Below, piece after piece: positions 8,795-32,260 of a stretch of DNA of 47,585 nucleotides. A program made the position numbers and the translations under genes. The number at the start of each line of letters is the position of its first letter. Positions within the stretch are counted from its first letter, which is position 1. Under the pieces are notes generated by a model. The model was not told where the DNA came from. It saw nothing but the letters and a program-made list of their open reading frames with translations, and did not search any database. Source of the stretch: a virus; IMG/VR virus record IMGVR_UViG_3300010354_000142, positions 1 through 47,585 of that record. One strand, given 5' to 3'.

Positions 8795-11781
8795 TATCCG
8801 TTACAATATACTTGGAAGTTTATACCAACATTTATTTGAAGGTCATCAAAATTAGGTTGACAGTTATTGTTGAAAACCACAATTTCTTCAGTTTGAGTAT
8901 CAATATTATAACCATATCCTGAAGTTTGTAAACTTTGGAACGCTTCTTCTAAAGCCGTTACCCACTCGGTATCGGAAGGGTATTGGTTTAATCCTACTCC
9001 TTGGAAGAATGGATATTGAAGTAATACTATATTATTTAATCTTATATCCACAAACCAACTACTAACGGTGGTATTCATTTGACAAGTATTTGGTAATATA
9101 CCTTCGGATATGAAAAATGAATTGAGAGTATCTGTCAAAACAACGCCAAAAGAAATGGTATTAGGATCAGAATTCCAAGGATATAATGCACATGTCACTT
9201 GTTGTACGGGACAATCCAATACGAAAAGTTGAGTTGTCAAGCTACAAGGTTTACATGGTATTGGTACAAACTTACATCCTTCTTGTCTTCTCCATACAAA
9301 TTTTTGTCTGTGGAATATAGAATTTTCTAATCTTACACCTGTGTTCCAAATTGTGGTTGCAGGAACCATTTGTTCAATAAGTTGAATCCAATAATCTCCC
9401 ATACCATTAACAAAGTCGATCATTGTCTGATATGTGAAGTTATTATTCGGAATACCCGCTTGAGTCAATGAGTCCAAATATTTCCAATAGATAGATTGAA
9501 GTGTAGGATACCCGCCAGTTTTACCATCCGTTATAAACTGTCTGTTTCTTGTGTTTACCATGTTTCTCCAAAAAGTTTGGGCAAACTCAAAAAATGTTTT
9601 TTGTTTAGGTTTCGGTATGATTGTTGTCCAATCTACCCCTCCGATTTTTGGATAAGGATTTGGGATATTACATGGTGAAGGTGGTGTATAAAATAATCCT
9701 TGTTCAGGTATAGGGTAATTATACTCTCTTGACATAGACCAAACATCGTATGCCAAACCTTGACCTGGATTCATCATTATGTCAACATTCTTAACATTAA
9801 GAACTAAACATTCCTCACCTACAGTATAGTATGATGTAAATCCTCCATCAGAACTTGTTCGTAAGAAAGGATTTGTATCTACCCAACTTTTTTTGTTTTC
9901 AGCCACTTTTCTTAACTTGAATCCCATGTCCATGTATGGGAAGTATCTATATCTGAATAGATATTCCTCACCATAATTGAATGGTAAAAGTTGAGTTTGG
10001 TAACTTGGATTGTTACCCGTAAACACTTGATTGGTTGGTACCGCAAATTCGGGCATCCTGTGATCAGGAGTAGATTGATACCAACCTCCTCCAATTTGGA
10101 AGAAATAACTTTCTGAAGGAGTTGGCATTTTTGGACATCCGAACTCGTCAACAGGATAATCGTTTCTTGTTGTCAGTACTGTGAAATTAGTTGCTGTTGT
10201 TGTGAAACCAGTATACTGAATTCCTTGGATTGAGAACACATTACTAGTTTGTAAAACCGGTAACTGAGTTGTTAGAGTACCTGTACTGATTTCCGCAAAC
10301 TGAGAATTGAACTCATCCATGTTTATTCTTCTATCAGCAACATATACATACTCATTAAAATCTGTTAGTGCTTCGGGAGCCCCTACCATTTTTAACAAAC
10401 ACTCAATTGATTTTCTTGTTCCTTTGGATTTGAATAAGTAAGCAGAATTCAATATCAAATTTCTATAAAACTGATAATTTAATTCCTCAGGGGTTGGTCC
10501 TATTTGTAGACCAGGGAATCTATTTGGTTGTGTTGTGAATACAGCTTGTAATAACTCTTCTTGTGAAATCGGAGAAAAGTTTGTAATCCATCCTAAGGTT
10601 TGTGCGAGATTTTTTAATAACTGTGATGGTATATCGTTTTGAACCGTGTAGTGTACACTGTTCATATTACCTAAAGCACCGATGAAAGTTTTGGTTTCGT
10701 CAAAACTTCTTCCATAAAGTTGTAACAACTTTTCAAACCTTTGATCAGGTGTGTCAAATTCCTTTAAAGCTCCCGTCGTTAAAAATCTTGATATAATGTT
10801 AGTAGAATATGTGTCAAGGTTTGCGGCAAAGTCATTGATCTGTGTTAAGTAGTTATCAAATCTTACTGAAGAGATATCCAAATTCCAAAACCCCGCTCTT
10901 GGCCAAGTGGCTAATTCTGTTGTTAATGCAAAAGTACCATCTTCTTGTTCTCGAGGTACAATAAACTGTGCTGTGTAAGGTGGTGAAATTTGTCTATTCA
11001 ATAAGAAATTTTCTACAGTGTCTAATTCAGTGTTGAAAACCTTATTACATTCAAAATCGTTTGGTCTAATAACCAAGTAGTCATTTGAGAAACTTGCACC
11101 GCTGAAAGGGTTGCCATCTACAATCAACTTTAAAGTTGTCGAGCTACTATTTGTCGGGTAAAGGTAATTAACAGGATATTGTACTCCATTCAAATAGAGT
11201 ACATATTTTTTATAGTTTAACTTCATGTTCCTCAACGGTGATGTTGGGAGTTCGTTAAACATCATGTTAGTTTCTGCGTTTTCTGAGTAATCTAATTCAA
11301 AAGGATTCTGAATTGACTCTAAGTAAACTTCAAATGTTGTGTCGTTTTCTACCGAATCATAAGAGATGTTAATTGCCGTTTCTTGAGTGATAAACTTTGG
11401 GGTCTGTGGATTTATTTCTAAACCTGCAGGAAAGAACCCAATTATTCTTGTTATTGAAACCGACATTCTTTTAACTAATGAACCGTATTGTGTGAAGTTG
11501 GTAACTTGTGATAAGTCATAGTTAGGGTAAACCCTATAATTGTTTGCAAGAATATCAGCCGACTCAATGTTGTTTTCTATATTCATGGATTCCAAATTTA
11601 TTGGATCCGAGAAAGTTCCTATGGTAAAAGTTCGGTTTTGTTTTTCACTTATACCTGTTGTAAATTGGAAATTTGCCTGCGTCAACCCTCCGCCAGTTAC
11701 CAACTGAACACCCACTAAATTGTTCGAGAACGAATTAGCGGCACTACTCTGAGGTGGGCAAGTAAATTTGTTTGTCGCCAT
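8794..11781 (-). CDS. Baseplate wedge protein, gp7/P2 gpI-like, with C-terminal fibre-type module
   Basis: A 995-residue virion protein. Residues about 310-480 resemble the tail protein I/gp7 class: a helical region (FEKLLQLYGRSFDETKTFIG) followed by YLFKSKGTRKSIECLLKMVG near residue 447, the K-(S/T)-KGT-x(4)-(L/I) motif typical of these wedge proteins. The middle is rich in aromatic residues (FRYRYFPYMDMG). A second helical part (FFEFAQTFWRNMVNTRNRQF) lies near residue 735. The C-terminal 95 or so residues (with Y934-PSDTEW) match the end of the next protein downstream. The gene overlaps its upstream neighbour by one base (TAATG). In T4-type baseplates gp7 joins wedge and periphery; here the added C-terminus may anchor or mimic the fibre. 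Class is inferred from motif and order (gp25, gp6, then this). Confidence 0.7.
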   Translation of the reverse strand: MATNKFTCPPQSSAANSFSNNLVGVQLVTGGGLTQANFQFTTGISEKQNRTFTIGTFSDPINLESMNIENNIESADILANNYRVYPNYDLSQVTNFTQYGSLVKRMSVSITRIIGFFPAGLEINPQTPKFITQETAINISYDSVENDTTFEVYLESIQNPFELDYSENAETNMMFNELPTSPLRNMKLNYKKYVLYLNGVQYPVNYLYPTNSSSTTLKLIVDGNPFSGASFSNDYLVIRPNDFECNKVFNTELDTVENFLLNRQISPPYTAQFIVPREQEDGTFALTTELATWPRAGFWNLDISSVRFDNYLTQINDFAANLDTYSTNIISRFLTTGALKEFDTPDQRFEKLLQLYGRSFDETKTFIGALGNMNSVHYTVQNDIPSQLLKNLAQTLGWITNFSPISQEELLQAVFTTQPNRFPGLQIGPTPEELNYQFYRNLILNSAYLFKSKGTRKSIECLLKMVGAPEALTDFNEYVYVADRRINMDEFNSQFAEISTGTLTTQLPVLQTSNVFSIQGIQYTGFTTTATNFTVLTTRNDYPVDEFGCPKMPTPSESYFFQIGGGWYQSTPDHRMPEFAVPTNQVFTGNNPSYQTQLLPFNYGEEYLFRYRYFPYMDMGFKLRKVAENKKSWVDTNPFLRTSSDGGFTSYYTVGEECLVLNVKNVDIMMNPGQGLAYDVWSMSREYNYPIPEQGLFYTPPSPCNIPNPYPKIGGVDWTTIIPKPKQKTFFEFAQTFWRNMVNTRNRQFITDGKTGGYPTLQSIYWKYLDSLTQAGIPNNNFTYQTMIDFVNGMGDYWIQLIEQMVPATTIWNTGVRLENSIFHRQKFVWRRQEGCKFVPIPCKPCSLTTQLFVLDCPVQQVTCALYPWNSDPNTISFGVVLTDTLNSFFISEGILPNTCQMNTTVSSWFVDIRLNNIVLLQYPFFQGVGLNQYPSDTEWVTALEEAFQSLQTSGYGYNIDTQTEEIVVFNNNCQPNFDDLQINVGINFQVYCNG

Positions 11782-16576: not shown

Positions 16577-19500
16577 CTATTCTTCCGTTGATACATAAAG
16601 TTTAAAGAACCTATCTATTGCGGTCTTACCGTTGTTTAATCCAAAGTAAAAATGATAAGGAGCTCCAACGATTATTGTTGAACTTGATGTTGGTGAAGAA
16701 CTTGGTGCTCCTTGTAAAATGGTTTGAGATGGTATATAAACCGCAGGATTACCGTTCAAGTCAAAATTCGTAAGATATCCCAACTCAGTCGTTGTGGTTC
16801 TGTACTTTCCAAACGACGAGTTGAAGTCTAAATCTTGGTATTTTCTTGTTAAGAACCCTGAAGTATTACTCGCATTCGTGTACCAATTATTATCTTCGGA
16901 ACCAAAAATGTTAGGTGTTCCTCCATAGGTTTGTGGTAATGAGATATTCCATCTATAATTTGGCACCTCTTGCGATTTTGGATAACCAAAAGATTCTTCA
17001 ATTAATGGTGAGAAATTATAAGTTTCAATACCAGGTGACATTATTTTTCTATATCTAATATCTTCTTGACTCACTTCAAAGAATAGTCCCATGATAGGTC
17101 TAAGATCATCGTTTGACACTGAGTTTGGTGCGTTGTTAGAGTTGTCACCAAAATAAATGTATTGTGGTCCCACAACATTTTCAGAAATGAATGGTGAAAT
17201 TTTCCATTCCGAATTAATTGATAACATTTGAGCCCAATCACCGTCAATTCTTTCACCTCCACGAGTACTATTAAAGAACTGAATGATACCTTTACCTTCA
17301 GAATTATCACCACCGTTACTTATTGGTATGATTCTTTGTCTGACACCAGCGTTTAATATTCTCGACAAGAATCCCAACTGAACTATATCCGAATTATCTT
17401 GATAAGAAGTTGTCTTCAATTGATCGGCATAATAAGATCCAAAACCTTTTTCACCACCTGAACAACATATTTCATTTATAAAATAATCTCTTGGACCCAA
17501 ATCAACGATAGTCGTTGGGAATTGTATTTGTTTAACATTATACCCAAAACCAGGATAATTACTAAATGCTGAATTTGGATTTTGTTGTGGAGAATCTTTT
17601 CCAACAAACTCATCTGTTGAGTCGCTATATGGAGATGATCTATAAAAGAATGTGTTAGAAATTTTATTGAAAACTAATACATCTCTACAATAGTTATAAA
17701 ATGGTTCATCTGGACCATTAGGAAAAGTTGTTTTTTTATTGAAATTGAACATGTATAAGGTCCCGTTAATCCAATTGTTTTGGAAAACTTGTGCAAATAC
17801 TCCTCTACAAGCCGCAAAGTTCATAGTAAATCTTACTTTCCACTCTAAGAATAATCTGACATCATCACCATATTGGAATAAGTATGTTTTATTCAATAAA
17901 CAATAACAACCGTTTATCATTCTGTTTGCAGGGATTGAGCATTGTCCTGCAGGTACAACACCTACATTTACCCCACTTCCAGTATAACACGCTAATGGTA
18001 CCATTCCCTCACATGTTAATGTGTCTGTCAAACCTGAAGTAATTGGGTCGGTATCTTCTTGTTCCCCTGAAGGTAAATCCAAACCTGCAGTAATGATAGG
18101 TTCACTCTGTGTACCATCTGCTTTATAAAACGCAAAATTATCGTTTTGATGTAGTGCAAAACCTGTCTGTGTTCCAGTCGCACCGTTTTGTACTTCAGTT
18201 GAGGTAGGTAACCTATCACTCCTCATTACAATATTATTCGAGTTATTGAAAACTACACCTGTCAAATTGTATCGATAATATGCCGGTGAATAGGTAGCCG
18301 TAAGATTACCCGCAGAGTTAACACCCGTATAAAAACTTGAAGTTGTGTCGAAGTATTGTCCTTTTTGACAAGTCTGATCACAAGATGGTGTACTTTGATT
18401 ATCACCTGTTTGTAAGAATATTGGGTAAGTTGTTAACGAATCTACCCATCTCATGTAAGTACCACCAACAGTATAGAATGAAGTGTTTCCTATTGGTAAA
18501 TCACGAGTCCCACTTACAATAGTCTCTTGTAATGATGTTGTACTTTGTGCGTTTGTTTGCCACTGACCAGGATATGGACTATATGATGAAGATATTGAAT
18601 CATCCGTACTCAAATAATAATAAGGATAGTTAGAAGTAAACGCGGTATATGATGACGAACTTGGGGTGAAGGTAAATGAGTTAAAATAAAGTGTCGACAA
18701 TGAATTGTTCGCGGTGTCATGTTGTGCTGGTTTAACACCACTCGGTAATGCCTGTATTGGATAGTTCAAATAATAACTTCCACTTACTATAGGACCCGTA
18801 CCAAATGATTTTCCAAATATCTTTGATAAGTCATATGTTATAGTTGGTTGTTTTGGTGAATGTGGATCTACCCCTCTTACAAAAATACAAATCTCATAAT
18901 TTTGGTAATCTTGCATATATGTTACAACATTCGGGAATGTAAGTGAGTTTACACCACATGTCCCTACAAGACAACTAATATCATGAAGTAAATAAGTGTT
19001 TGGAAAGAAACCAACATTACCAGTGTTAGACAAGTTTATAAAATCATTATATGTTACACCAGTAACTAATTGGAAGTACTCAATGTCTGTTGGATATTGT
19101 AGATAGGATTGTTCAACACTAGTATTTCCGATGACTGGTAACTGACTCACCTGTGGTGAAACGACAAATATATTTGCAGACAGTGAACTAAGTGGATTAG
19201 ACGGGTTTGCATATGAAACTACTTTCGGTATACTAGTACCTGTAGTTGTAACTCCCGTTATCGAATTGGTATTAAATTGGTTTAAGGTTGCACCTGTCAA
19301 ATTGGTTAACCTATTTCCTGGTGAAGTATAGTTTGGGTTAACATAATTTGGATTTTGGAATGTTACAATCTCCCCAACCCCTAATTCTTCTGTAGATCCT
19401 TGATTCATTAATACAACAACTACTTGATCATAATATGGTGTGGATCCTAATGTTGGGTTTACAGTAGTCTTTATTTGGTTAACACCACTATTGATCTGAT

Positions 19501-22183
19501 TTTGAGTACTTGAATAAAAATATTTATCTCTTGTATTAAATTCATTTAATTTTTGACCATAAGGTACACTACTTGGGACTGCAAACCATCTATCGTCTTT
19601 AATATTGTTACCAGGAACTCCGTTTTTATCAGCTCTAAATAAAAATGGTTGAGGAGCCTTAAGTAAGTAAGATTCATTTGGTATTAGTCTATTAGGATCT
19701 GTAGAACTAATAACATCGTAACCCGAAAATATTCTTTTAAAATCTACTGAAGCTTTCAATATCACATCAATTTTTACATCCTCATCTTGTAATAATTCAC
19801 TAAATGTTCTACAAGAAAAAGGATCATTTCCATCTTCGTCAGGTGCGGTATTAGGGTGATCAATAAGATATGCCCCTGAATAACTCACAGGTGCAATAAG
19901 AGTGTTTGGAGTTGCTAAGACAACATTATTTCCTCCTTGTCCCGATGCTTCTTGTGCCGCTGCCGCTTCAAGTTGATTTGTTACAGAACTTGTACTGAAA
20001 TCATCTTCAAGTTCTGCATCACCACATTGACAATCACAACTTGTACAGTCAGGATATGCAATCATAGGTAAACCGATCCTTGGGAATCCTTTAACTCTGA
20101 TGGCAGCAAGTATAGCGAAAGCTGTAAATGCCGCGGCTAAAACTACAGAAAATGCCGCCTTCAGTACAAGAACAACCTGAGCTAAAATTAATCTTATCGA
20201 TTTTACAATCGCACCGACATCAACAACAGGTCCCGCAGCACTTGCAGATATTATACTCGATTGTGTTTCAATCACATCCGCTGCGTTCTGAACCGCATTA
20301 AATGTGTCTGCGATTGCATTTTTGGTTAAAACAATACCTAAAATGATTAATACATATTTTAATATTGGCCACATGAAGGCTATGAAATGGGCCACGAACA
20401 ATAGTACTAATAGTGGAAAAGTTAAAATATTGATGAGTATGTTGAAAACAAAAAATATTGGATCAAAATTTCTTATTATGTCGTTGACGGGAAATGTGTT
20501 AACAGTAGATTTACAAGATCTATTGTCTATTTCTTTAATACCTAAATGTCTCGCCCGACCAATACCATTTTTATATCGGTCTAAAAACATTCCCGTTGTG
20601 TAAACTTTATTATACCCAAACTCATAGAAAGTATCTTCACAATCTATAGCGGATTGAGAATCATAATAATCATCCCAATCCGTGCTGAATGCATAGGATC
20701 TGAATACATCAAAAAGATCTTGCGGGATGTAAGTAAACTGAATATCTTGTGGTTGATTTATGTTAAGTGGTGTTGCAACAATAAAAAATGTGTCACCAGG
20801 TCCTATTGCAATTGATTCAACAGAACCAAAGTATTCTGCGCCATTAATATAAATTGAGTAACTTTCAACATTATTTGTTATTGGATTTGCCAACCCTCCT
20901 GGTGGTACCGTGGATGTTGACCCTGTCAATGAACCTGCAGGTATTTGTGGGTAGGTATATGTACCTGTATTATTATTAATGAATGGATCACTACTTGATG
21001 AGGTCCATCCATGTTCTTTAATGTTTGGTACTAGAAAATCAGCTCTCAAAAAATTACCTTGTAATCCTTGTTCACTTTGCCACTTGAACTTAAATCTATA
21101 TTTACCTTTTGTCGGTATTCCTTTCGTAGGGTCATTAGATAAAACTTGTTGACCAAATTCATTTGTAAAAATGTAATCTAAATTCATAGGTACATTTAGA
21201 ACAAAAGTTCCGTCAGCGTCTATTACTTTACCTCCTTGTTCTATGTCCCATCTTTCGAGGATAGGAAGTCCATCAACATCTGAGAATATTGTCTGTCTAA
21301 TTGCTTGTATAGAACCTGGTCCTGCAACTAACTCACACAAGTTACCCGTATTGTTTTTCGGTTTACATTTTGTTTTTAGAGCATCATCATCCGTATTAGA
21401 GAAAATTGACCCCATGAAAATGGCATTAGGTTGGATTGTAATGTTCGCCTGTTTCGTCAAGTCAAAGTCTACTCTTGTAATCCCTATTTGACAAAGGTCT
21501 TGACTACCCCAAAATGGTCTTACATTAACATTATAAATAAGATTTTTAATTTGAGGTAATTCTCGTAAGTTTGATGAGGACTTAAATCTTGCACCATTTA
21601 CTTGTGATTCAGTCGCCAATCCTTGTTGAATTAAATCTTGAGGAGAAAGAGAGAAACAACCAATATCAGATAAGTCAACATCCATCACTATTGTTTGTTC
21701 ACCAACAGGAACACCAAAAATCATAAAGTCACCACTTTCGTTGGTAGTCACAGTAAATCTATAGTACTTATCATACACTTCTATATATGATTCGTCCATC
21801 AAAACATCACCCTTGTTAGGAAATGATCCTGTGGATACATGTCCTTGGTAAGATGGTAATTTTGGAAGTAAGTTATATCGATAACCTTCTTCATTAATAT
21901 CGTTAATACTTTTGTAAGGGTATAATTCTGAAATTACAGGATTTAATTCATCGTCATCCTCTAAGGGTATGAATACTGATACTTTAGCATTTGGTAGTCC
22001 AAACCCACCATTAACAAATACACGACCTGTTACAACACCATAGTCAGCACAGAATCTTGTATAAATGTTATTAGACAGAATCTTCAAAGATAAAATCTCT
22101 AAGGATTCCCAATCTTGCTCTAAATTTACATTAATATACTTATCAACACCTACTTCGGTCCTTATTCTATATGATTTGGGCAT
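16577..22183 (-). CDS. Giant baseplate protein with CnaB-like domain, membrane-like helices and Cys cluster (1868 aa)
   Basis: Residues 13-35 carry the DKYINVNLEQDW motif shared with the next two genes. Residues about 49-170 look like a carboxypeptidase-regulatory/CnaB-type beta-sandwich (VTGRVFVNGGFGLPNAKVSV, then FTVTTNESGDFMIFGVPVGE). Residues about 574-620 hold strongly hydrophobic helices (FFVFNILINILTFPLLVLLF and YVLIILGIVL) and 661-696 another pair (LAQVVLVLKAAFSVVLAAAF). C713, C716, C718 and C720 form a CTSCDCQC cluster. The remaining 1100 residues are Asn/Ser/Tyr-rich beta structure. It follows gp25 and gp6, so a wedge or periphery role is expected. Transmembrane helices are unusual in a virion protein and may be buried in the particle or inserted in the host membrane on contraction. 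Confidence 0.8.
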   Translation of the reverse strand: MPKSYRIRTEVGVDKYINVNLEQDWESLEILSLKILSNNIYTRFCADYGVVTGRVFVNGGFGLPNAKVSVFIPLEDDDELNPVISELYPYKSINDINEEGYRYNLLPKLPSYQGHVSTGSFPNKGDVLMDESYIEVYDKYYRFTVTTNESGDFMIFGVPVGEQTIVMDVDLSDIGCFSLSPQDLIQQGLATESQVNGARFKSSSNLRELPQIKNLIYNVNVRPFWGSQDLCQIGITRVDFDLTKQANITIQPNAIFMGSIFSNTDDDALKTKCKPKNNTGNLCELVAGPGSIQAIRQTIFSDVDGLPILERWDIEQGGKVIDADGTFVLNVPMNLDYIFTNEFGQQVLSNDPTKGIPTKGKYRFKFKWQSEQGLQGNFLRADFLVPNIKEHGWTSSSSDPFINNNTGTYTYPQIPAGSLTGSTSTVPPGGLANPITNNVESYSIYINGAEYFGSVESIAIGPGDTFFIVATPLNINQPQDIQFTYIPQDLFDVFRSYAFSTDWDDYYDSQSAIDCEDTFYEFGYNKVYTTGMFLDRYKNGIGRARHLGIKEIDNRSCKSTVNTFPVNDIIRNFDPIFFVFNILINILTFPLLVLLFVAHFIAFMWPILKYVLIILGIVLTKNAIADTFNAVQNAADVIETQSSIISASAAGPVVDVGAIVKSIRLILAQVVLVLKAAFSVVLAAAFTAFAILAAIRVKGFPRIGLPMIAYPDCTSCDCQCGDAELEDDFSTSSVTNQLEAAAAQEASGQGGNNVVLATPNTLIAPVSYSGAYLIDHPNTAPDEDGNDPFSCRTFSELLQDEDVKIDVILKASVDFKRIFSGYDVISSTDPNRLIPNESYLLKAPQPFLFRADKNGVPGNNIKDDRWFAVPSSVPYGQKLNEFNTRDKYFYSSTQNQINSGVNQIKTTVNPTLGSTPYYDQVVVVLMNQGSTEELGVGEIVTFQNPNYVNPNYTSPGNRLTNLTGATLNQFNTNSITGVTTTGTSIPKVVSYANPSNPLSSLSANIFVVSPQVSQLPVIGNTSVEQSYLQYPTDIEYFQLVTGVTYNDFINLSNTGNVGFFPNTYLLHDISCLVGTCGVNSLTFPNVVTYMQDYQNYEICIFVRGVDPHSPKQPTITYDLSKIFGKSFGTGPIVSGSYYLNYPIQALPSGVKPAQHDTANNSLSTLYFNSFTFTPSSSSYTAFTSNYPYYYLSTDDSISSSYSPYPGQWQTNAQSTTSLQETIVSGTRDLPIGNTSFYTVGGTYMRWVDSLTTYPIFLQTGDNQSTPSCDQTCQKGQYFDTTSSFYTGVNSAGNLTATYSPAYYRYNLTGVVFNNSNNIVMRSDRLPTSTEVQNGATGTQTGFALHQNDNFAFYKADGTQSEPIITAGLDLPSGEQEDTDPITSGLTDTLTCEGMVPLACYTGSGVNVGVVPAGQCSIPANRMINGCYCLLNKTYLFQYGDDVRLFLEWKVRFTMNFAACRGVFAQVFQNNWINGTLYMFNFNKKTTFPNGPDEPFYNYCRDVLVFNKISNTFFYRSSPYSDSTDEFVGKDSPQQNPNSAFSNYPGFGYNVKQIQFPTTIVDLGPRDYFINEICCSGGEKGFGSYYADQLKTTSYQDNSDIVQLGFLSRILNAGVRQRIIPISNGGDNSEGKGIIQFFNSTRGGERIDGDWAQMLSINSEWKISPFISENVVGPQYIYFGDNSNNAPNSVSNDDLRPIMGLFFEVSQEDIRYRKIMSPGIETYNFSPLIEESFGYPKSQEVPNYRWNISLPQTYGGTPNIFGSEDNNWYTNASNTSGFLTRKYQDLDFNSSFGKYRTTTTELGYLTNFDLNGNPAVYIPSQTILQGAPSSSPTSSSTIIVGAPYHFYFGLNNGKTAIDRFFKLYVSTEE
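20026..20464 (-). other. Membrane-helix region and CxxCxCxC cluster within the 1868-aa protein
   Basis: This part of the gene encodes residues about 574-720. It contains three to four hydrophobic helices long enough to span a bilayer, an amphipathic Ala-rich stretch between them, and then four cysteines in eight residues (C713-C720). The composition is quite unlike the polar, Asn-rich protein on either side. Confidence 0.65.
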
Positions 22184-22260: not shown

Positions 22261-24102
22261 CTACGAGAAATTAACAGATTTTAAATTAAGAACCCTGATA
22301 TTAATATCCTTATTCGGGTATCTTACTTGATAGATTTGTGTTGGTGTTGCAAAAAGAGTGTCGGCAACTGGTTGTATTTGTCTTGTTAAAGGATCTGCGT
22401 ATGTCATTGAAGTTTGACTTGAGGAATACTGTCCCCCAACTTGGTTAAAGAATAATACATCTGAAACTGAAACAATACCATTCTCTGATTGAATAAGTCT
22501 TCTGAGTTCGGATATGTTAACATTTTGACCTAAGTTTCTAACTAATGGATTGAAGAAGTTTGTTACTATCTCAATAGTTTTCGCAATAACCGCACCTTGG
22601 TTTTGACTATTGTCTAACACAACATCTACCGTAACTGCCAAGTCTATGGTTTCTGCCGCTTGGATCGATATGTAATCATTAATCATTCTGTAGTTAGAAA
22701 GATAATTAGCAACATTTTGTTTTAGTGTATTTGAGACAACATTTGTTAAAGTACCTGAAGAATCGTAAGATAACATTTTGATTATTATTTTATTATTTTC
22801 TTCAGTTATTGCAACTTTTGCAGGTGCACCAAACTGAGCTGGCATAGTTCTCAATAAAGAATTATAATCGTTTACTGTTACAGCTCTATTCTGTGCCGCG
22901 AAGTTGAATGATACCATGTTTCTTACATCCTCCGTTGTTGGTGGATTTGCACCACCTATAGCGGCGGTAACATTGTTACATTGTAGGCTGTTAATTACAC
23001 TTCTGTTTGCACTTTCTGAAGGTCCATTAACTGCAAATGAAACAGTACCTATTTGATTAATGGTATTGATACCAACATTACTTGACAATCCACCACCAAT
23101 TCTATACTGAACAAACAAAGTTGTGTTAGGTGTCAAAGCAGCACCCATGGAATAGTTGTTAGTGTATCTACTCAAATCAAATCCTTTACCGTCTCTTGCA
23201 AATTCTTTAAGTTGTTCGTCAGCAGAAATGTTTCCACCACCAAAAGTCATTTTACAAAAACCTTGAGGTGTGTATTCAGAAATAAACTTATTAGATGTTG
23301 TTATGTAAACTCCAACTTTAATTCCTGGTTGGTCTGATGTTTTGGTTGGATCTTCAACAAACACTCTGTCTTGAACTAATGCGTCTACTTCATACCAACG
23401 ATCAGGTCCTAATGTTATAAAATCTTGAGGGTTAGGAATTGTAGAATATTGTGTACCTTGTTTTAATAGAACACTTGTGATACCTAATACATTTTTTTCA
23501 GGTAAAAACAATTCCAAATATGGTTTACTATCGTTTGGAGTTATTACTCTTTTGAAAACTTTTGTGATCCCGTTAACAACAACTTCTCTTTTGGTGATTG
23601 TATAATTTAACAACTTTCCGCTTGCATCGAAATTCGGAGTTTTAATTCTGTTTGGGGACCCTTCAGCATTTATAGGAGACGCAAAATCAATATCATAAAC
23701 TGTTTCAAATGGTTGTCCTGCACCATTGACCTGCGAACCTCTTCTTAATACTCCACAATATCTTAAATCTTCACGGTCACCAAAAGCTGGTACAGTTATC
23801 GAAAAGTCAACAAGTGCAACAGATGGTCTTTGACCAGGAACTTTTAATCCATAAGTTCTTGCAATATTGAAAACTGAATTTTTTTGTTGAGCAAACTGTA
23901 GAACTGTTTCCTGAATACTTCTGTCAATTTGATAATTTAAGTTATCAGTTACTGCAGCATTCAAATCTAACATGACGGAAAAGATACCGGCGTCATTGAA
24001 GTTTTGGACCAAGTCAGGATAATAGGTTCGTGTGAAGTTAATCAACTCAGTTCTAACTCCTTGAAAGTCCCTTACGGTGTAGGAAATCTTTTTTTCTGCC
24101 AT
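22261..24102 (-). CDS. 6: Baseplate wedge protein gp6-like (baseplate J family)
   Basis: A 613-residue protein starting MAEKKISYTVRDFQGVRTEL. The N-terminal helix-rich part has the NDAGIFSVMLDLNAAVTDNL segment and an IDR-x(2)-QE-x(2)-L pattern near residues 58-68, typical of gp6/J-type wedge proteins, which dimerise to form the inner baseplate ring. A central region (PPTTEDVRNMVSFNFAAQNR) and VTVNDYNSLLRTMPAQFG are the familiar baseplate-J core: a short helix, then V-T-x-x-D-Y. The C-terminus is of mixed fold with ISELRRLIQSENGIVSVSDV. Its position directly after gp25 matches the conserved gp25-gp6 pair of contractile systems. T4 gp6 is about 660 residues, so the length fits. Confidence 0.9.
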   Translation of the reverse strand: MAEKKISYTVRDFQGVRTELINFTRTYYPDLVQNFNDAGIFSVMLDLNAAVTDNLNYQIDRSIQETVLQFAQQKNSVFNIARTYGLKVPGQRPSVALVDFSITVPAFGDREDLRYCGVLRRGSQVNGAGQPFETVYDIDFASPINAEGSPNRIKTPNFDASGKLLNYTITKREVVVNGITKVFKRVITPNDSKPYLELFLPEKNVLGITSVLLKQGTQYSTIPNPQDFITLGPDRWYEVDALVQDRVFVEDPTKTSDQPGIKVGVYITTSNKFISEYTPQGFCKMTFGGGNISADEQLKEFARDGKGFDLSRYTNNYSMGAALTPNTTLFVQYRIGGGLSSNVGINTINQIGTVSFAVNGPSESANRSVINSLQCNNVTAAIGGANPPTTEDVRNMVSFNFAAQNRAVTVNDYNSLLRTMPAQFGAPAKVAITEENNKIIIKMLSYDSSGTLTNVVSNTLKQNVANYLSNYRMINDYISIQAAETIDLAVTVDVVLDNSQNQGAVIAKTIEIVTNFFNPLVRNLGQNVNISELRRLIQSENGIVSVSDVLFFNQVGGQYSSSQTSMTYADPLTRQIQPVADTLFATPTQIYQVRYPNKDINIRVLNLKSVNFS

Positions 24103-24108
24103 ATAAAA

Positions 24109-24567
24109 TTAAATATTTAGAATTATAAAATCTTGTGATTCAAATGCCGAATCTGTGATTCTATAATCAATTTTGATTCTTGCGGTGTGTTCTAATGTTG
24201 CAATATTGGTAACTTTGAACTCTCGTTCTCCATCTTTGTTAACAGTATACCCTTTATCCTCCAACCCTGCTGAGGCAGGTTCAACAGTGATATTGATTAC
24301 TTGTAAATTTGGCATGTAATTTCGTATGGAATCCCTTATTTCACTTTCAATGTCAGAGAATGTTGGCCCATCAAGTGGTTCAAAGATGTATTCATATAAT
24401 CTTGTACCAAAATCAGGTAAAAAATATCTACTACCTTTTCTTGTTAATAGTAAATGAACAAGGTTTGCCCTTATTTCACCTTCAGTAGAATTTGTGACAT
24501 CCAAATACCTACCGGTAAAAGAATCCACAAAAGGAAAAGAAATTCCGTAAGTAATACCATTTGCCAT
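24109..24567 (-). CDS. 25: Baseplate wedge protein gp25-like (GPW/gp25 family)
   Basis: A 152-residue protein with the gp25 core around residues 35-70: E-G-E-I-R-A-N-L-V-H-L-L-L-T, then RKGSRYFLPDFGTRLYEYIF with P-D-F-G-x-x-L. This is the hallmark of the GPW/gp25 family, which joins the wedge to the sheath base in T4, P2 and type VI secretion systems. A helix (FSDIESEIRDSIRNYMPNLQ) and beta-strands follow, as expected. Six bases separate it from gp6. Older records sometimes label such proteins lysozyme; no lysozyme catalytic motif is present. It opens tail module B after the nrdA terminator and has its own TATTTATA box. Confidence 0.93.
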   Translation of the reverse strand: MANGITYGISFPFVDSFTGRYLDVTNSTEGEIRANLVHLLLTRKGSRYFLPDFGTRLYEYIFEPLDGPTFSDIESEIRDSIRNYMPNLQVINITVEPASAGLEDKGYTVNKDGEREFKVTNIATLEHTARIKIDYRITDSAFESQDFIILNI

Positions 24568-24640: not shown

Positions 24641-27070
24641 TTAGGAAGAACATCCAAAACATTCAAAATCTGAGTTTTCAGGTCTCGGAGGTAAATTTAA
24701 ATGAGTGTAATCTACTTTTGGTGTTTCAGTCACGACTTTTGGTTTTTCTCTTTTGGAAATATCCACGGCCAAATGCTTGGCTCCTGTTGAGATTGCTTTA
24801 GTTCTAACATAATAACAAAGAGTCTTTAAACCTTTTTCCCATGAATGAAAATGTGATGAGGTAATCTTCGATAGTGTTGGGTTTGCCATGTAGATATTCA
24901 TTGATTGTGATTGATCGACAAAAGGTGCTCTGTCTGCCGCCATATCAATAAGTTGTCTTTGTGAAATCTCCCAAATGGTTTTATATTTAGGAATCAAATG
25001 TTCAATTCGTTTAACTTTCTTATTATAATTTTTGTCTTCAGGATCCAAATAATTGTTGAAGTTAATGTTTTGAATTGACCCTTCATTGATAATAATTTCA
25101 TTTTTCAAGTCTTCACACCAAATTCCAATCTTTTCAAAATCGTTAATTAAGTATTTGTTTACGATCAAGATTTCACCACCCACAACTCGTCTGTTAAATA
25201 ATGCTGAGTGTGCCGGTTCAGTCATTTCAAATGAACCTGTAATCTTTGCTGAAGATGCCACTGGCATTTGTGCGGTAAATAATGAATTACAAACACCGTA
25301 CTCAGAAACACTCTTCTTTAATTTACTCCAATCCCACATTCCTGAAAGTTGTGTTTGATCAACACCCCACATATCAAATTGGAATTCTCCTTTTGACATC
25401 GGTGAACCTTTAAAGAATTTATAGGGTTCATACTTCCCATTCATACACAACTGATTACTTTCATAAATTGCCGCATAATAGATAGTTTCAAAAATATCCT
25501 TATTTAACTTTTTAGCTTCCTCAGATGTAAAGATATAGTCCATCAAATAAAAGACATCTGCCAAGCCTTGGGTACCAATTGCAATAGCTCTTTGTTCCAT
25601 CCCACCCTTTAAACCCTTTTGAGTTGAGTAGTTATTGATATCAATTACTTTGTTGAGTGCTCTAACAACTTTTCTTACTTCAGTAAATAACAATTCGAAA
25701 TCAAACTTTCCTCCTTGGATGAAGTTTTTCAAAACCATAGATGATAGTGTACAAATTGCGGTTGTTTCTTCATCAGTATATTGATAAATCTCATTACAAA
25801 GATTCGATTGTTTGATTACACCAATATTTTGGTGATTAGTTTTTCTATTCGCACTGTCTTTTGCACATAAGTAAGGTACACCGGTCTCAATTTGTGACTC
25901 GATTATTTTAGTCCAAATATCTTGAGCTTTAACTTTTTTACCAAGTCCCATGGAAACTGCGGTATTATAAGTTTGTTCATATTCGTCACCAAAAGATTCT
26001 TGAAGTGGTTTCAATCCCGCCTTTTTAATATCATTAGGACAGAACAAATACCAATCATCTCCGTTTCTAACGGATCTCATAAAATTATCAGGAATCCAAA
26101 GTGCCGTAAACAAGTCACGAGCTCTTAATTCTTCAGCGCCTGTATTCTTTTTAATATCCAAAAGATCAAAGATATCTTTGTGCCATGGTTCAAGGTAAAT
26201 TGCTGCAGAACCTGGTCTACGACCTTGTTGATTAAAGAACCTTAGTGATTCGTTTACAATTTTAAGGTATTTTAATAGACCACCAGCATATCCACCTGAA
26301 CTTGAAATTCTACTTTCTTTACTACGGATATTAGACATTGATAACCCAATACCTGCAGCATCTGATGAGAATGTTGAAATATCAGTTAATGTGTCTAACA
26401 AACCTTTTCTTGAATCAGAATCATTATAGTGTAGAACACATGATGCTAACTGAGGAACTTTTGTTCCTGAATTAATCATAATAGGGGTCGCCTTTGAGAT
26501 TAATTGATTAGATAAAGATTGGTAGTATTCAAGTGCGTCTGCAATGTTTGTAGTAACCCAAAGAGCGACTCTCATGTACATGTGTTGTGGTCTTTCAATC
26601 ACCTTACCGTTAGGTTTTTTTAACAAGTACATTTCTTGTAAAGATCTCCAAGCAAAGTAATCAAAGTTATAATCATTCTCATGATTAATTGCTGCGTCGA
26701 TAGTATCTTCACCATATTCTTTAATGGTTTCAATCAACTTTTCATTAATGATACCATCCTCATACAACTCATTCATTGTTTGAGAGAAACTATCATTTGT
26801 TTCTTTGTGGTAGGATGAAATTGCAACGAATGATGCTAATCTAGAATAATCGTGATGACTTCCTGTATATGAAGCTGCGATTTCGTAAACTAACTTATCT
26901 AACTCTTTTGTAGTTATTTCACCCTCCGTTGGTACTGAGGTAATTACTTTAATAAAAATTTCATCAGAGTTAACACTTAAACCTTTAGCGGCTCTTTTAA
27001 CTCTATTGTAAATTTTTTGTGGGTTAAATGGGACTACCTCACCACCTCTTTTGATTATTTTTAATGACAT
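24641..27070 (-). CDS. nrdA: Ribonucleotide reductase class Ia alpha subunit
   Basis: An 809-residue protein. Residues 1-85 form an ATP-cone (MSLKIIKRGGEVVPFNPQKI), the allosteric activity site. The catalytic Cys is in QSNLCNEIYQ near residue 421 (the N-x-C-x-E motif), with redox partners in QLASCVLHY and TTAICTLSS. The radical-transfer tyrosine pair is in KTLCYYVRT. The C-terminal CFGC (residues 804-807) is the swinging dithiol reduced by thioredoxin or glutaredoxin. All key residues are present, so the enzyme should reduce NDPs to dNDPs for phage DNA synthesis. The length fits class Ia. The gene follows nrdB by 10 bases, forming a clear nrdB-nrdA pair, and ends at a terminator. No inteins or introns were seen. 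Confidence 0.97.
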   Translation of the reverse strand: MSLKIIKRGGEVVPFNPQKIYNRVKRAAKGLSVNSDEIFIKVITSVPTEGEITTKELDKLVYEIAASYTGSHHDYSRLASFVAISSYHKETNDSFSQTMNELYEDGIINEKLIETIKEYGEDTIDAAINHENDYNFDYFAWRSLQEMYLLKKPNGKVIERPQHMYMRVALWVTTNIADALEYYQSLSNQLISKATPIMINSGTKVPQLASCVLHYNDSDSRKGLLDTLTDISTFSSDAAGIGLSMSNIRSKESRISSSGGYAGGLLKYLKIVNESLRFFNQQGRRPGSAAIYLEPWHKDIFDLLDIKKNTGAEELRARDLFTALWIPDNFMRSVRNGDDWYLFCPNDIKKAGLKPLQESFGDEYEQTYNTAVSMGLGKKVKAQDIWTKIIESQIETGVPYLCAKDSANRKTNHQNIGVIKQSNLCNEIYQYTDEETTAICTLSSMVLKNFIQGGKFDFELLFTEVRKVVRALNKVIDINNYSTQKGLKGGMEQRAIAIGTQGLADVFYLMDYIFTSEEAKKLNKDIFETIYYAAIYESNQLCMNGKYEPYKFFKGSPMSKGEFQFDMWGVDQTQLSGMWDWSKLKKSVSEYGVCNSLFTAQMPVASSAKITGSFEMTEPAHSALFNRRVVGGEILIVNKYLINDFEKIGIWCEDLKNEIIINEGSIQNINFNNYLDPEDKNYNKKVKRIEHLIPKYKTIWEISQRQLIDMAADRAPFVDQSQSMNIYMANPTLSKITSSHFHSWEKGLKTLCYYVRTKAISTGAKHLAVDISKREKPKVVTETPKVDYTHLNLPPRPENSDFECFGCSS

Positions 27071-27080
27071 AATTTTAAAT

Positions 27081-28028
27081 TTAAAAGTCCTCTGTAAATG
27101 TTATTGTTTCATTCAGTTTTGCCTTCTGATATTCCATAGTTCTTGACTCAAAGAAATTACCTTTTGTTTCGACCGCAATTTGTTCCATGAATTTAAATGG
27201 TTGATCAACATTGAACTCTTTTGAACAACCCATTTTAACAAGTAATCCGTCAACAACAAACTCAAGATATTGTTTCATAAGGTTGGAGTTCATACCGATA
27301 AGTGAAACAGGGAGTGATTCTGTGATAAATTCTTTTTCAATTTCAAGAGCGGATAATAAAATTTCTTTAATTCGTTTTTCAGAAGGTTTTTCTTCTAAAT
27401 GATTATTCAATAAATGAATTGCAAAATCACAATGTAAGTTTTCGTCTTTGAATATTAATGAATTTGCATTACACAACCCTTGCATAATTCCTCTTGATTT
27501 CATCCAAAATATAGAACAGAATGATCCTGAGAAAAAGATACCTTCAACCGCCGCGAATGCAACTAATCGTTCCGCGAATGAAGCTTTTTCAATCCAATCC
27601 AAGGCCCACTTAGCTTTTTTCTGAACTGCAGGTAATCTGTCAATTGCATTAAAACATTCGTCTTTTTCTTTTGGGTTATTGATGTAGGTGTCGATAAGTA
27701 ATGAGTACATCAAGGAGTGGATGTTTTCCATAGCCAATTGGAACCCGTAGAAAAATTTAGCTTCAGGATATTGTACTTCACGATAAAAGTTCTCAGCCAA
27801 ATTTTCATTCACGATACCATCAGAAGCCGCAAAGAACGACAATACATTTTTGATAAAATATTTTTCATTCTCTGTTAATGATTCCCAATCACGAATGTCA
27901 TTAGTTAAGTCAACTTCCTCAGCAGTCCAAAAAGCCGCTTGGTGTTGTTTGTAATATTCCCAAATATCATTGTGTTCGATAGGGAAGATGACGAACCGAC
28001 CAGGATTTTCAACTAGTATTTTTTCCAT
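27081..28028 (-). CDS. nrdB: Ribonucleotide reductase class Ia beta subunit
   Basis: A 315-residue R2 protein. Iron ligands are D40 (WTAEEVDL), E101 and H104 (AMENIHS), E162 (AVEGIFF), and E196 and H199 (FKDENLHC). The radical tyrosine Y108 lies four residues after H104, as in the standard E-x-x-H-x(3)-Y arrangement. The C-terminus ends FTEDF, similar to eukaryotic-type R2 tails that bind the alpha subunit. It is a little shorter than E. coli NrdB (376 residues), as is usual for this subgroup. It stores the tyrosyl radical for NrdA, encoded immediately downstream. No Shine-Dalgarno site is visible upstream. The iron-tyrosyl prediction comes from conserved residues alone. Confidence 0.97.
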
Positions 28029-28048
28029 TTTTAAAATTTAATTATTTG

Positions 28049-29431
28049 TTAATTTGTTTGTGTTTCTTTTTGTTTTCTTTTTTCAAGAAGTTCTCTAACT
28101 CTTTGTCTTTGTCTTTCTTCTTTTTGTTCCTCGAGACCAAGAAAAGTCATCGAGCTTTCAGTATCAATTTCAATCATTGCATTATCAAACTTACAATTTT
28201 CGAAAACTACTCCATCATCACCTATACGAGACTTTGTAATTGCAATTGTTGCTAACTTCAACTCTTTTTGTTGTAGTGTTTTAGCGACTGAGATAATGAC
28301 ATGTCCAACCTGAGCTTTTTTAATTGACCCACCCATTTGATCTGTGGTTACAACTTCAGATGAAATTGATGATCGGTTACCTTGTGTTGCGGTCCAACCA
28401 ACTATATTCATCTCGTGACACATCGCTTCAAATGCTCTCATTACCGATCCTTCGCTTTTCCACTCATCACCAAGATTCTTATCAGGAACAACACAGTCAA
28501 TATAGTCTAATACTACCATATCAATCTTGATTCCGTCAGAAACCATTTTTCTAATTTGATTTTTAATTTGTAACATCGTCATCGTATCAGATGGGAGTTT
28601 TTTCAAAATCAACTTATTCGGCATTGAGTCTTCAATCTCTTTTACTTTAGCCATAACCTCATCCTTTTTTTCTGACAAATCGTCAGGATGTATTTTGGTC
28701 CAAAGGGTAAAGTGTTTTCTTTGGATTACCTTTGAGTTATCCTCAAAAAAGATTTGGAGGACATTGAAACCAAGATTGAATGCGTGATTTGCCATCTTAG
28801 TTAAAATTGTTGACTTACCAACACCCGTAGGGGCTAAGATAACGCCAATTTCTCCTTTTGCCAAACCTCCTTTCAATAATCTGTCGATACCTGGTATACC
28901 CATTGGGACAGGGTGTCTATAGTCCTCTTCGAGAACTTGATCAAGGTTCGAGAATACATCCAATATTGATGTATCTTTTGATCCCACTTGAAGTGCCGTT
29001 TTGACCATTTCTTCAAGGGTGTCATAACTTTCAAACTCACCTCCATCGATTATTTTTTGAGCCTTACCCATAACCTTTTGAAGTTCCTGTTGTTTACAGA
29101 ACTTTAAAGCCTTTTCTTGGACAAAACCCACTCCGTCGATAGGTGCATCTTTAATTTTTTTAATTGTATCCAAAACAATCTTGGATGCGGTTGCTTGTTG
29201 TAATTCAGACTTAGTAATTTGTTCAAGTGTTTCAAACGATGGTGTGTGATCATATTTAAGATAATACTCTTTCACCATTTGAATAATTATTTTGAAGTAC
29301 TTGTTTTCAAAATAATTGTTTTCAATAACATCAAGAATTGAGTGTGAAAAGTCTTTATCTACAACAATTTGATTTAATAATTGTAACTGAAATGTGTTCC
29401 CTAAATATTCAAAGTTTTTGCTAGTCGCCAT
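28049..29431 (-). CDS. 41: Replicative DNA helicase, gp41/DnaB-like
   Basis: A 460-residue protein with a helical N-terminal domain (about 1-150) and a RecA-fold C-terminal domain. Walker A is APTGVGKST at residues 200-208, the catalytic Glu is in IFFEDN near 230, and Walker B is MVVLDY at about 305-310. A DnaB H4-type segment (TTDQMGGSIKKAQVGHVIIS) lies near residue 375. The C-terminus is strongly charged (EEQKEERQRQRVRELLEKRK). In T4, gp41 is the hexameric 5'-3' replicative helicase that works with a primase. No primase domain is fused here and no primase gene was seen in the window. Upstream is the best Shine-Dalgarno site seen in the window (AAAGGAGA, 9 bases before ATG) and a TATTTATC box. 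Confidence 0.9.
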   Translation of the reverse strand: MATSKNFEYLGNTFQLQLLNQIVVDKDFSHSILDVIENNYFENKYFKIIIQMVKEYYLKYDHTPSFETLEQITKSELQQATASKIVLDTIKKIKDAPIDGVGFVQEKALKFCKQQELQKVMGKAQKIIDGGEFESYDTLEEMVKTALQVGSKDTSILDVFSNLDQVLEEDYRHPVPMGIPGIDRLLKGGLAKGEIGVILAPTGVGKSTILTKMANHAFNLGFNVLQIFFEDNSKVIQRKHFTLWTKIHPDDLSEKKDEVMAKVKEIEDSMPNKLILKKLPSDTMTMLQIKNQIRKMVSDGIKIDMVVLDYIDCVVPDKNLGDEWKSEGSVMRAFEAMCHEMNIVGWTATQGNRSSISSEVVTTDQMGGSIKKAQVGHVIISVAKTLQQKELKLATIAITKSRIGDDGVVFENCKFDNAMIEIDTESSMTFLGLEEQKEERQRQRVRELLEKRKQKETQTN

Positions 29432-29440
29432 ATTTTTTTT

Positions 29441-29448
29441 TCTCCTTT
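29441..29448 (-). promoter_or_regulatory. Strong Shine-Dalgarno site of the helicase gene
   Basis: The minus strand reads AAAGGAGA 9 bases before the ATG at 29431. This is notable because most genes here lack a recognisable purine-rich site, as is common in the Bacteroidota. Confidence 0.7.
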
Positions 29449-29454
29449 AGTAAA

Positions 29455-29462
29455 GATAAATA
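29455..29462 (-). promoter_or_regulatory. TATTTATC box upstream of the helicase gene
   Basis: The minus strand reads TATTTATC 23 bases before the ATG at 29431. It is the only box of this type seen before a replication gene. The spacing leaves room for a Shine-Dalgarno site, unlike the fibre genes. Confidence 0.3.
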
Positions 29463-29465
29463 GTA

Positions 29466-29915
29466 CTAGTTTTTGATAAAGTTAGGATAAAAATAATTAA
29501 ATTTTTGACCTGAAAAAATGTCAGTCAAGTCCGCCATTATAGCTTTTAACTTTGGGCGTAGGTCTACGGTGTATCTTACCTTTGGAGGGTAAGGTTTAGC
29601 GTCAAACTGTCTATGACAAATTGTCATATCTCCTACCTTAATAATTAGATTAAAATTTTCTGGTCCATCAGTAATCGATGTATTCAGAAGTTCAGGGTTC
29701 TCTAAAATTTCATATTGGTTGTCCAACATGTAAACTACCGATCTCATTTTAAGATCGTACTTAAGCTCTCTTGAAAGTCTGTCTATGTGATCATAAAACT
29801 CCTCCGACTTGTGAGCATTTTTGTTGTACCCTCTAACATTGAAGAATCTTTGAACAACAATGTTATCATTACACATTAACAAGAATTCTACTTTTGTTAT
29901 GTCCTGTTCTCTCAT
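29466..29915 (-). CDS. Conserved-looking hypothetical protein between rnh and helicase (149 aa)
   Basis: A 149-residue protein of mixed alpha/beta composition: MREQDITKVEFLLMCNDNIV, then a helical EEFYDHIDRLSRELKYDLK and a C-terminal LKAIMADLTDIFSGQKFNYF. I do not recognise a family and see no nucleotide-binding motif or zinc ligands. It is packed tightly between rnh and the helicase gene, so a role in replication (loader, regulator or accessory factor) is plausible but unproven. The size would allow a helicase loader such as T4 gp59, but I see no sequence reason to claim it. Confidence 0.75.
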   Translation of the reverse strand: MREQDITKVEFLLMCNDNIVVQRFFNVRGYNKNAHKSEEFYDHIDRLSRELKYDLKMRSVVYMLDNQYEILENPELLNTSITDGPENFNLIIKVGDMTICHRQFDAKPYPPKVRYTVDLRPKLKAIMADLTDIFSGQKFNYFYPNFIKN

Positions 29916-29920
29916 TTTTT

Positions 29921-30931
29921 TTAATTTTTTTTGTTTCTAAATTTTTGTTTTTCTTTTCTTGTCAATTTAAGGAATGGTTTTAAAAAACTTACCCAAGCGT
30001 CGTCACCCTTCGGTAGATATTTGAAAAACCCGTCCTCCATCATCATTCGAATTAGGTTTCTATGTCCTCTTCCATCGGGATCCAACGACTCAGAGTAATA
30101 TAATCCAACTAATTCTTTTTCCTCTTCATTCAAAAGCGGGTTGTCTAAATTAACAAGTTTTTCGTTTATTACAAAAAACTCATCTCCATAAATTCCCTCT
30201 TTTGTTTTTCCGCTTAATAGATTTTGAAGAGCAACATTTCCTTTTTCTTCTTTCAAGAGTTGTTCACTCTTTTGTAAAATATAAGATAATTCTACCTTTT
30301 CTTCAAGAAGTTCAGGAAAGATTTTGATCAAAGTCTTTTCACCAAGGAAAAATATTCCATCAATGTTGTCGGAACTATCACCAGTGAGAATTTTGATTGT
30401 TTTAACATTATAGTGGGGAACTTCGATATCATGAAGTTTAATTTTATCCCCATTCTTATAATATTGTTTTGTGGATGGTGAATAAATGGATACCTTCTCC
30501 CCAATCAGTTGAGTTAAATCTCTATCACTCGAAAAGATTGTTTTCTCTTCGTCTGGTGACACTTTACAGTAGTGAGCTATTAAGTCATCAGCTTCTGCAT
30601 GTTCTGTCTCCAATTGTCTTACAAACATCTCCTCGAGGTATTGTTTTACCCTCTGTTTCTGATCCAAAAAAGATTCCTCTTTTGATTCTGTTTCTGACGA
30701 TTTACGATTCAACTTATACTTTGGGTAGATCAACCTTCTCTGTGCTGATGAGGTTTTGGAATCCCAACAAACAACAACTTTATTATAGTTGTGTTCTTCT
30801 AAGAATTTTCGAAGAGTGTTTAGAAAGTGCCAAACTCCGCCGACATGTTTCCCATTGTGATAGAACTCTCTAACACCATGAAAACCAATTTTCAATAAAT
30901 TATTTCCGTCTACTAATAATGTTTTGGACAC
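29921..30931 (-). CDS. rnh: 5'-3' exonuclease / RNase H of the FEN family
   Basis: A 336-residue protein with the acidic active-site motifs of the FEN/5'-nuclease family: LLVDGNN (D8), VVVCWD (D57), HAEADDLIA at 111-119, SSDRDLTQL at 134-142 and GDSSDNIDGI at 184-193. The last is the helix-hairpin entry with two metal-binding Asp residues. T4 RNase H is 305 residues, removes RNA primers and trims the lagging strand with gp32. The start codon is GTG at 30931, with AGGAA directly upstream, unlike the ATG starts elsewhere. The C-terminus is basic (LTRKEKQKFRNKKN). It lies between uvsX and the helicase region, which fits lagging-strand processing. Confidence 0.92.
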   Translation of the reverse strand: MSKTLLVDGNNLLKIGFHGVREFYHNGKHVGGVWHFLNTLRKFLEEHNYNKVVVCWDSKTSSAQRRLIYPKYKLNRKSSETESKEESFLDQKQRVKQYLEEMFVRQLETEHAEADDLIAHYCKVSPDEEKTIFSSDRDLTQLIGEKVSIYSPSTKQYYKNGDKIKLHDIEVPHYNVKTIKILTGDSSDNIDGIFFLGEKTLIKIFPELLEEKVELSYILQKSEQLLKEEKGNVALQNLLSGKTKEGIYGDEFFVINEKLVNLDNPLLNEEEKELVGLYYSESLDPDGRGHRNLIRMMMEDGFFKYLPKGDDAWVSFLKPFLKLTRKEKQKFRNKKN

Positions 30932-30952
30932 TTCCTAAAACTTAAATGATTT

Positions 30953-31969: not shown

Positions 31970-32190
31970 TATAGTTCGTATATTTTAAAGTTTGTAATTG
32001 TTTCTAATTTATCTTTAGCGTCTGTTAGTTGCCCGACTAAATTATCCATTTCTTCCGTGTGTTGTGGGTGTTCCCCAATACCAACAGGATTGGTAAAATA
32101 AACATATAATCTTGCTTCAGCATCCGCAATTTCCGCTTCGTATTTTTTTACAAGGGCCTCTTTTAATTTTTCAGCAATAAATGGTTTCAT
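31969..32190 (-). CDS. Small helical protein co-translated with uvsX (73 aa)
   Basis: A 73-residue protein with two long helices: MKPFIAEKLKEALVKKYEAE and a C-terminal MDNLVGQLTDAKDKLETI, separated by a loop with GIGEHPQH. Its stop overlaps the uvsX start. The size, coiled-coil look and position upstream of uvsX make a recombination mediator such as UvsY conceivable, but T4 UvsY is 137 residues and I see no real sequence match. Best treated as an unknown replication or recombination accessory. Confidence 0.75.
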   Translation of the reverse strand: MKPFIAEKLKEALVKKYEAEIADAEARLYVYFTNPVGIGEHPQHTEEMDNLVGQLTDAKDKLETITNFKIYEL

Positions 32191-32213
32191 AGTTTTTTTT
32201 TAAAAATATACAC

Positions 32214-32244
32214 AAAAAAACGGGAACAATAAACTGCTCCCGTT
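32214..32244 (-). terminator. Intrinsic terminator after gp32
   Basis: On the minus strand AACGGGA pairs with TCCCGTT across a 12-base loop, and the stem runs into a tract of seven T residues (32214-32220). It lies about 17 bases after the gp32 stop and leaves gp32 as a single-gene unit, with readthrough possible into the uvsX genes. Confidence 0.85.
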
Positions 32245-32260
32245 ATACTTTTTTTCATAA

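Follow-up and report, generated by a model that had tools for sequence, protein, structure and literature searches.

Does a contractile-tailed phage carry, in its baseplate, helices of its own that enter the host membrane? In contractile-tailed phages, passage of the DNA across the inner membrane is usually credited to the tape measure protein or to ejected proteins. The window analyzed here, a 47.6-kb virus record (47,585 nucleotides), encodes an 1868-aa protein, hereafter X, in which a sequence-only reading had noted a hydrophobic stretch followed by C-x-x-C-x-C-x-C. Both are real and lie within two bases of where they had been placed. A hydrophobic helix paired with a Cys cluster is unusual for a virus tail part and may help it to grip or cross the host membrane. 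X is a concrete, testable candidate for the inner-membrane crossing of contractile-tailed phage DNA in hundreds of uncultured large phages.

An additional protein in the baseplate operon

The reading had also placed X in a baseplate, and this setting is borne out by the surrounding genes:

16577–22183, minus strand: protein X of the baseplate operon, 1868 aa, bearing the hydrophobic helices (open reading frame and homologues)
22261–24102, minus strand: gp6/Baseplate_J wedge protein, immediately upstream of X (PF04865, E=1.2e-4; phrog_219, E=3e-19)
24109–24567, minus strand: gp25 wedge protein (PF04965, E=6.5e-13; phrog_261, E=1.5e-17)
8794–11781, minus strand: gp7/gpI/TssG-like wedge protein, 995 aa (KSKGTRKSIECLLKMVGAP motif; hhalign)
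41224–41547, minus strand: small baseplate wedge protein, gp53-like (phrog_7145, baseplate wedge subunit, E=2.5e-6)

We infer the last of these to be gp53 by name. Enough upstream DNA was available at 302 loci encoding relatives of X. A readable ORF ended immediately before the X gene in 274 of these, and in 268/274 a gp6 profile matched it. X is thus, by gene order, a fixed component of a T4-like contractile-tail baseplate operon (gp25-gp6-X), and from synteny alone we infer that it is part of the virion. The order gp25-gp6-X can serve as a marker and gives an identity to a large unannotated gene.

X is not the gp7/gpI/TssG wedge protein: the KGT..SI..LL...G.P motif region is absent from X and found in the 995-aa protein. 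The latter carries the KSKGTRKSIECLLKMVGAP motif, which we take to be a marker of gpI/gp7, and in hhalign it matched the corresponding large tail protein from three other phages (probability 94, E=1.1e-7). Because motif and profile match both fall in the 995-aa protein, X represents an additional protein of the operon. The large post-gp6 gene of Flavobacterium phage immuto, Mel-JY01, and LR756508 was likewise rejected as a counterpart, as hhalign returned nothing and those proteins lack hydrophobic segments.

A superfamily of uncultured giant phages

Sequence comparison places X in a large unrecognized superfamily present in hundreds of uncultured giant phages. Searches of Pfam and PDB with X gave zero matches, PHROGs nothing convincing (one weak match, phrog_33348, E=0.036), and INPHARED no cultured relatives (tblastn with seven superfamily members). 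By contrast, a scan of IMG/VR yielded 194 relatives, and two wider viral-contig scans yielded at least 581 and at least 586 confirmed relatives. Several phages of the group lie on contigs of 150–410 kb, the longest, in the second type described next, being 412 kb. Homologues at 51–82% identity, mostly full length, surround the window's X (window-type); a remote set reached through MAG contigs (second-type) is ~40% identical over the first 390 residues. Across the superfamily, identity to the window's X falls to ~31%, with the helix and trailing Cys still kept. Papers on Jug-phages and bS21-phages name baseplate proteins without this hydrophobic helix/Cys feature.

The following elements of X were delineated, in order from the N terminus:

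20999–22183, minus strand: N-terminal beta-rich domain, residues 1–395, superfamily-defining (40–42% identity to the relatives L152 and L151)
20714–20998, minus strand: inserted beta domain, residues 396–490 (AlphaFold pLDDT mainly 85–98)
20639–20641, minus strand: Cys515, upstream of the helices (C in 82/97 window-type sequences)
20513–20515, minus strand: Cys557, upstream of the helices (C in 93/97 window-type sequences)
20480–20494, minus strand: FPVND motif, residues 564–568, start of the helix region (conservation of P565 and N567)
20255–20461, minus strand: helix 1, residues 575–643, hydrophobic core ~576–622, superfamily-wide element (AlphaFold, Kyte-Doolittle peaks, conservation)
20096–20218, minus strand: helix 2, residues 656–696, hydrophobic, variable in sequence, missing in some close relatives (AlphaFold helix)
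20024–20047, minus strand: CTSCDCQC, residues 713–720, candidate metal site (conserved Cys)
17762–17785, minus strand: FQNNWING motif, residues 1467–1474, core of the C-terminal half (common to L151 and L152)
16607–16657, minus strand: YHFYFGLNNGKTAIDRF motif, residues 1843–1859, end of the core (common to L152; similar pattern in many homologues)

AlphaFold with 33 close homologues as input reached a pLDDT of only 48, compared with 83 (pTM 0.68) for 135 diverse sequences. The latter model comprises a beta-rich body, whose N-terminal domain is predicted in blocks of mainly pLDDT 80–95, the inserted beta domain, poorly conserved in sequence, and two long helices of 69 (575–643) and 41 residues (656–696) that sit between the folded body and the low-confidence Cys segment. 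Against PDB, the best 50 Foldseek matches listed were just generic beta sandwiches, at query TM-scores near 0.1. The one viral homologue that it retrieved, A0A8S5LA66 of Myoviridae sp. ctPuP5 (30% identity over 666 columns, E=6.7e-48), belongs to the same superfamily and is uncharacterized, so it is uninformative on function; the remaining matches were partial and generic. In the C-terminal half, a loose FQNNWING pattern fits most second-type homologues. The YFYFGL motif ends X in the window, and many second-type homologues (L290–L369) run ~1000–2000 residues past it, so the C-terminal extension is variable.

One conserved hydrophobic helix

Kyte-Doolittle hydropathy (19-residue windows, threshold ≥1.6) exceeds the threshold at residues 573–625 and 653–700 of X, with peaks of 2.53, 2.34, and 2.44. 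The mean maximum over 500 shuffles of X was 1.88 and the largest 3.09. A lone peak of 2.5 is within the shuffle range, and the case therefore rests on clustering at one site and on conservation. A second scale put three segments, at residues 582, 604, and 677, under its threshold of 0, with a marginal fourth at 656. We found no segment ≥1.6 in the other tail or structural ORFs of the window.

Conservation in homologues had been set beforehand as the refutation test, and both the hydrophobic helices and the Cys proved to be kept. In a first alignment (the window plus 68 near-full-length homologues), C.SC.C.C was always there, always after 1–4 hydrophobic segments. A hydrophobic segment at the equivalent site occurred in 326/327 superfamily proteins ≥900 aa; by the second scale, 325/327 had 1–4 segments there. 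The ORF of the sole exception (L077) starts ~200 codons late, apparently because the frame of this X gene is broken upstream, near its start (8001–8620 of that contig). The segment was not found in two shorter relatives, L151 (743 aa) and L153 (~725 aa).

Within the window's clade, residues 573–612 are strongly conserved, and N581, H599, and W605 of helix 1 are invariant in 46 diverse sequences; residues 625–700 vary in sequence yet remain hydrophobic. The stretch from PxN to the first Cys spans 75 residues rather than ~145 in some relatives close to the window's X (L055–L061, L121, and L132) that lack helix 2. In the tree, these are scattered within the window's clade and form no single branch. 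As helix 2 is absent from such close relatives, a fixed multi-pass topology is not required, and, on account of the same short proteins, the common denominator of the superfamily is, from the sequences compared, one helix of roughly 30–50 residues. The several bilayer-length helices originally proposed are hydrophobic helices indeed, but what is conserved is a single helix, and the number of hydrophobic segments varies from 1 to 4.

Helical periodicity at 100 degrees was significant in 69% of 137 diverse 30-residue segments (median p 0.017), as against just 4–7% at 90, 110, and 160 degrees. A narrow polar stripe runs along these amphipathic segments, and for most of the 137 the mean hydropathy is ~1.8–3, which far exceeds that of an ordinary amphipathic or coiled-coil helix. 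When the helical-wheel test was confined to the window's clade, the signal was weak and mixed (p 0.01 to 0.3) because the segment is too conserved there; it is clear only superfamily-wide.

Cysteines on both sides of the helices

The helix region is bounded by conserved residues. P565 is kept in 96/97 window-type and 38/38 other sequences and N567 in 92/97 and 37/38, where one window-type row sits among the 38. CTSCDCQC is the sole C..C.C.C in X, and its cysteines are kept in 91 (C713), 88 (C716), 82 (C718), and 52 (C720) of the 97 window-type sequences. With Cys515 and Cys557, conserved Cys flank the hydrophobic region on both sides. Looking for at least four potential ligand cysteines, we found C515, C557, C713, C716, and C718, each in 82–93/97 window-type sequences. 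Over the 90 residues that follow the helices, Cys density is 4.8%, vs 1.4% elsewhere (3.5 times). The four-Cys cluster of the sequence-only reading survives in that its Cys are conserved; its exact CxxCxCxC spacing, specific to the window's clade, stands at one end of a gradient that passes through CxxCxC to CxxC, with C-x4-C instead in much of the second type. Given the conserved pattern, the cysteines at the helix base most likely bind metal (zinc or iron-sulfur).

Membrane-active helices or a buried core

We consider it quite possible, if somewhat short of probable, that the helices of X are membrane-active and deployed at infection. Several copies, probably six like other wedge-linked parts, would hold their helices packed in the resting baseplate. 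Opening of the baseplate would expose them, and they would then insert into or lie on the host membrane, the hydrophobic face towards lipid and the polar stripe towards a channel or neighboring helices. The baseplate would thereby be anchored, or a path for tube and DNA would be lined, while the Cys-bound metal would hold both ends of the helical region together. A wider claim, which we regard as rather doubtful, makes X the first recognized example of a class of baseplate proteins, widespread in contractile-tailed phages, that bring their own membrane-inserting helices with a cysteine-metal clasp at the helix base; anchoring to the host membrane or opening it would then fall to the baseplate rather than to the tape measure or ejected proteins.

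Precedents exist for the parts of this model. The loops of phi29 gp9 start as a helix bundle within the knob and rearrange into a barrel whose outer surface is hydrophobic (PMC6542822), and X would act like these pore-forming loops, unrelated by descent. Under the membrane-active model both are tail-tip proteins with an internal hydrophobic helical segment (PMC6542822), but the phi29 tail is short and non-contractile, whereas the operon of X is that of a contractile-tail baseplate, and X has a Cys cluster. An hmmsearch of PDB chains with profile A6 gave 0 matches at E≤10, hence none to gp9, and the gp9 fold was not among the best 50 Foldseek PDB matches of X. In the tCIS of Anabaena, extensions of the baseplate protein Cis12 and the fiber protein Cis13 attach to the thylakoid, and Cis13 has a membrane helix (PMC8894136). 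Here too, an amphipathic or membrane helix sits in a baseplate or fiber component of contractile machinery. These extensions, however, tether the machine within the cell that made it, and the membrane helix belongs to the fiber protein Cis13; X is encoded separately, next to gp6. The equivalent of Cis12 (gp7/gpI) in the window is the 995-aa protein, not X. At the lambda tail tip, gpL holds an iron-sulfur cluster bound by four Cys (PMC10721106). X shares with gpL and RcGTA gp13 four conserved Cys in a tail-tip protein, with metal bound in gpL (PMC10721106), although Cys173, 182, 205, and 212 of gpL are widely spaced, unlike CxxCxCxC after a hydrophobic helical region. Large tail proteins with predicted membrane-spanning segments are also known among siphophage tape measure proteins such as that of TP901-1, whose hydrophobic regions may serve assembly or chaperone binding and not membrane insertion (PMC5099701).

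X differs from those tape measure proteins in being beta-rich and encoded beside gp6; a tape measure would be a mostly helical rod encoded next to the tube and sheath genes, and we rejected that role for X. The 272-kb contig of one relative (L019; L370–L384) encodes a separate candidate tape measure, a 614-aa helical Cys-free protein between the sheath gene (116037–119387) and the large tail proteins; it had no family match and no hydrophobic segment. Helix-forming residues make up 28% of the X orthologue of this phage vs 45% of the better tape measure candidate. X is the sole protein ≥450 aa with >1 hydrophobic segment on this contig. The same contig also encodes, at 47292–48623, a 443-aa protein that matches no PHROG and contains three or four hydrophobic segments.

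The main rival to membrane-active helices is a buried oligomeric core, a reading that we hold possible with more reservation: X subunits would pool their helices as the hydrophobic interior of an oligomer in the baseplate, never meeting lipid, and the Cys metal site would lock it. A segment number of 1–4 between conserved flanks, together with the loss of helix 2, is easier to reconcile with a bundle than with a membrane topology, and one-helix relatives, some of them close to the window, are incapable of two passes. Amphipathic periodicity suits a helical bundle as well, and the 69-residue helix predicted by AlphaFold exceeds what a bilayer needs. Nor could a C-terminal part of ~1100 residues readily be pushed through a membrane, and the first membrane that a wedge-linked part would meet is the outer one, in which alpha-helical spans are rarely found. 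On the other hand, a hydropathy of ~1.8–3 over 30 residues leaves a polar stripe thinner than that of most bundle helices, and no solved baseplate component is alike in sequence or overall fold. Insertion into the host membrane would account for the retention of helix and trailing Cys at the same site despite strong divergence, with 625–700 free to vary; it agrees with the alpha-helical periodicity and high hydropathy of the 137 segments, with the predicted placement of two long helices between body and Cys segment, with hydrophobic segments in X and none in the tape measure candidate of the 272-kb phage, and with the precedents of phi29 gp9 (PMC6542822), Cis13 (PMC8894136), and lambda gpL (PMC10721106). 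Even a buried core would leave a new superfamily with an unusual architecture.

An assembly role without any part in entry, in which X tethers the growing baseplate to the membrane of the infected cell or its hydrophobic part binds a chaperone, appears unlikely. The thylakoid attachment of Cis12 and Cis13 extensions (PMC8894136) speaks for a tether, and the possible recruitment of chaperones by hydrophobic parts of a tape measure protein (PMC5099701), which also counts against membrane insertion, for the chaperone. However, no partner gene was identified, the released virion must still cover its hydrophobic surface, and the tCIS membrane helix sits in the fiber protein, not beside gp6. That the stretch is a neutral insertion, lacking any important function and tolerated in a giant protein, is very improbable in view of its conservation. 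Its sequence does vary freely at 625–700, and L151 and L153 manage without it, a lack that weighs against membrane activity too; but its presence in 326/327 homologues ≥900 aa with strict PxN and Cys neighbors, and the high conservation of helix 1 in the window's clade, oppose neutrality.

Genomic neighborhood and hosts

Downstream of X, the window encodes proteins with PKD, collagen, and SprB repeats. Two Cys-rich SprB-repeat proteins (1711–3783 and 6596–8794; 27 and 20 Cys), probably adhesins or fibers, lie near a collagen-repeat fiber (4815–6278), and a 326-aa protein at 3800–4780 matches phrog_4417 (unknown function, E=4e-67). The hosts of X-bearing phages are probably Bacteroidota, given the SprB repeats, the occurrence of a Flavobacterium phage among the strongest matches to gp6, and the labels of the MAG contigs, which include Bacteroidota and Cytophagales, but also, among the four, one Mycoplasmatota and one Wolfebacteria. 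Farther upstream of X, genes for gp32-like and UvsX-like proteins, an exonuclease, a gp41-type helicase, and both ribonucleotide reductase subunits (NrdA/NrdB) occupy 24641–33124, between two tail-gene blocks on the same strand. Beyond these replication genes lie a phrog_52 tail protein and then the small wedge protein. A 1682-aa tail protein at 41550–46598 has a weak OmpA-like match at residues 888–942 (E=0.0097, short of the Pfam cut-off) that may mark a peptidoglycan-binding domain.
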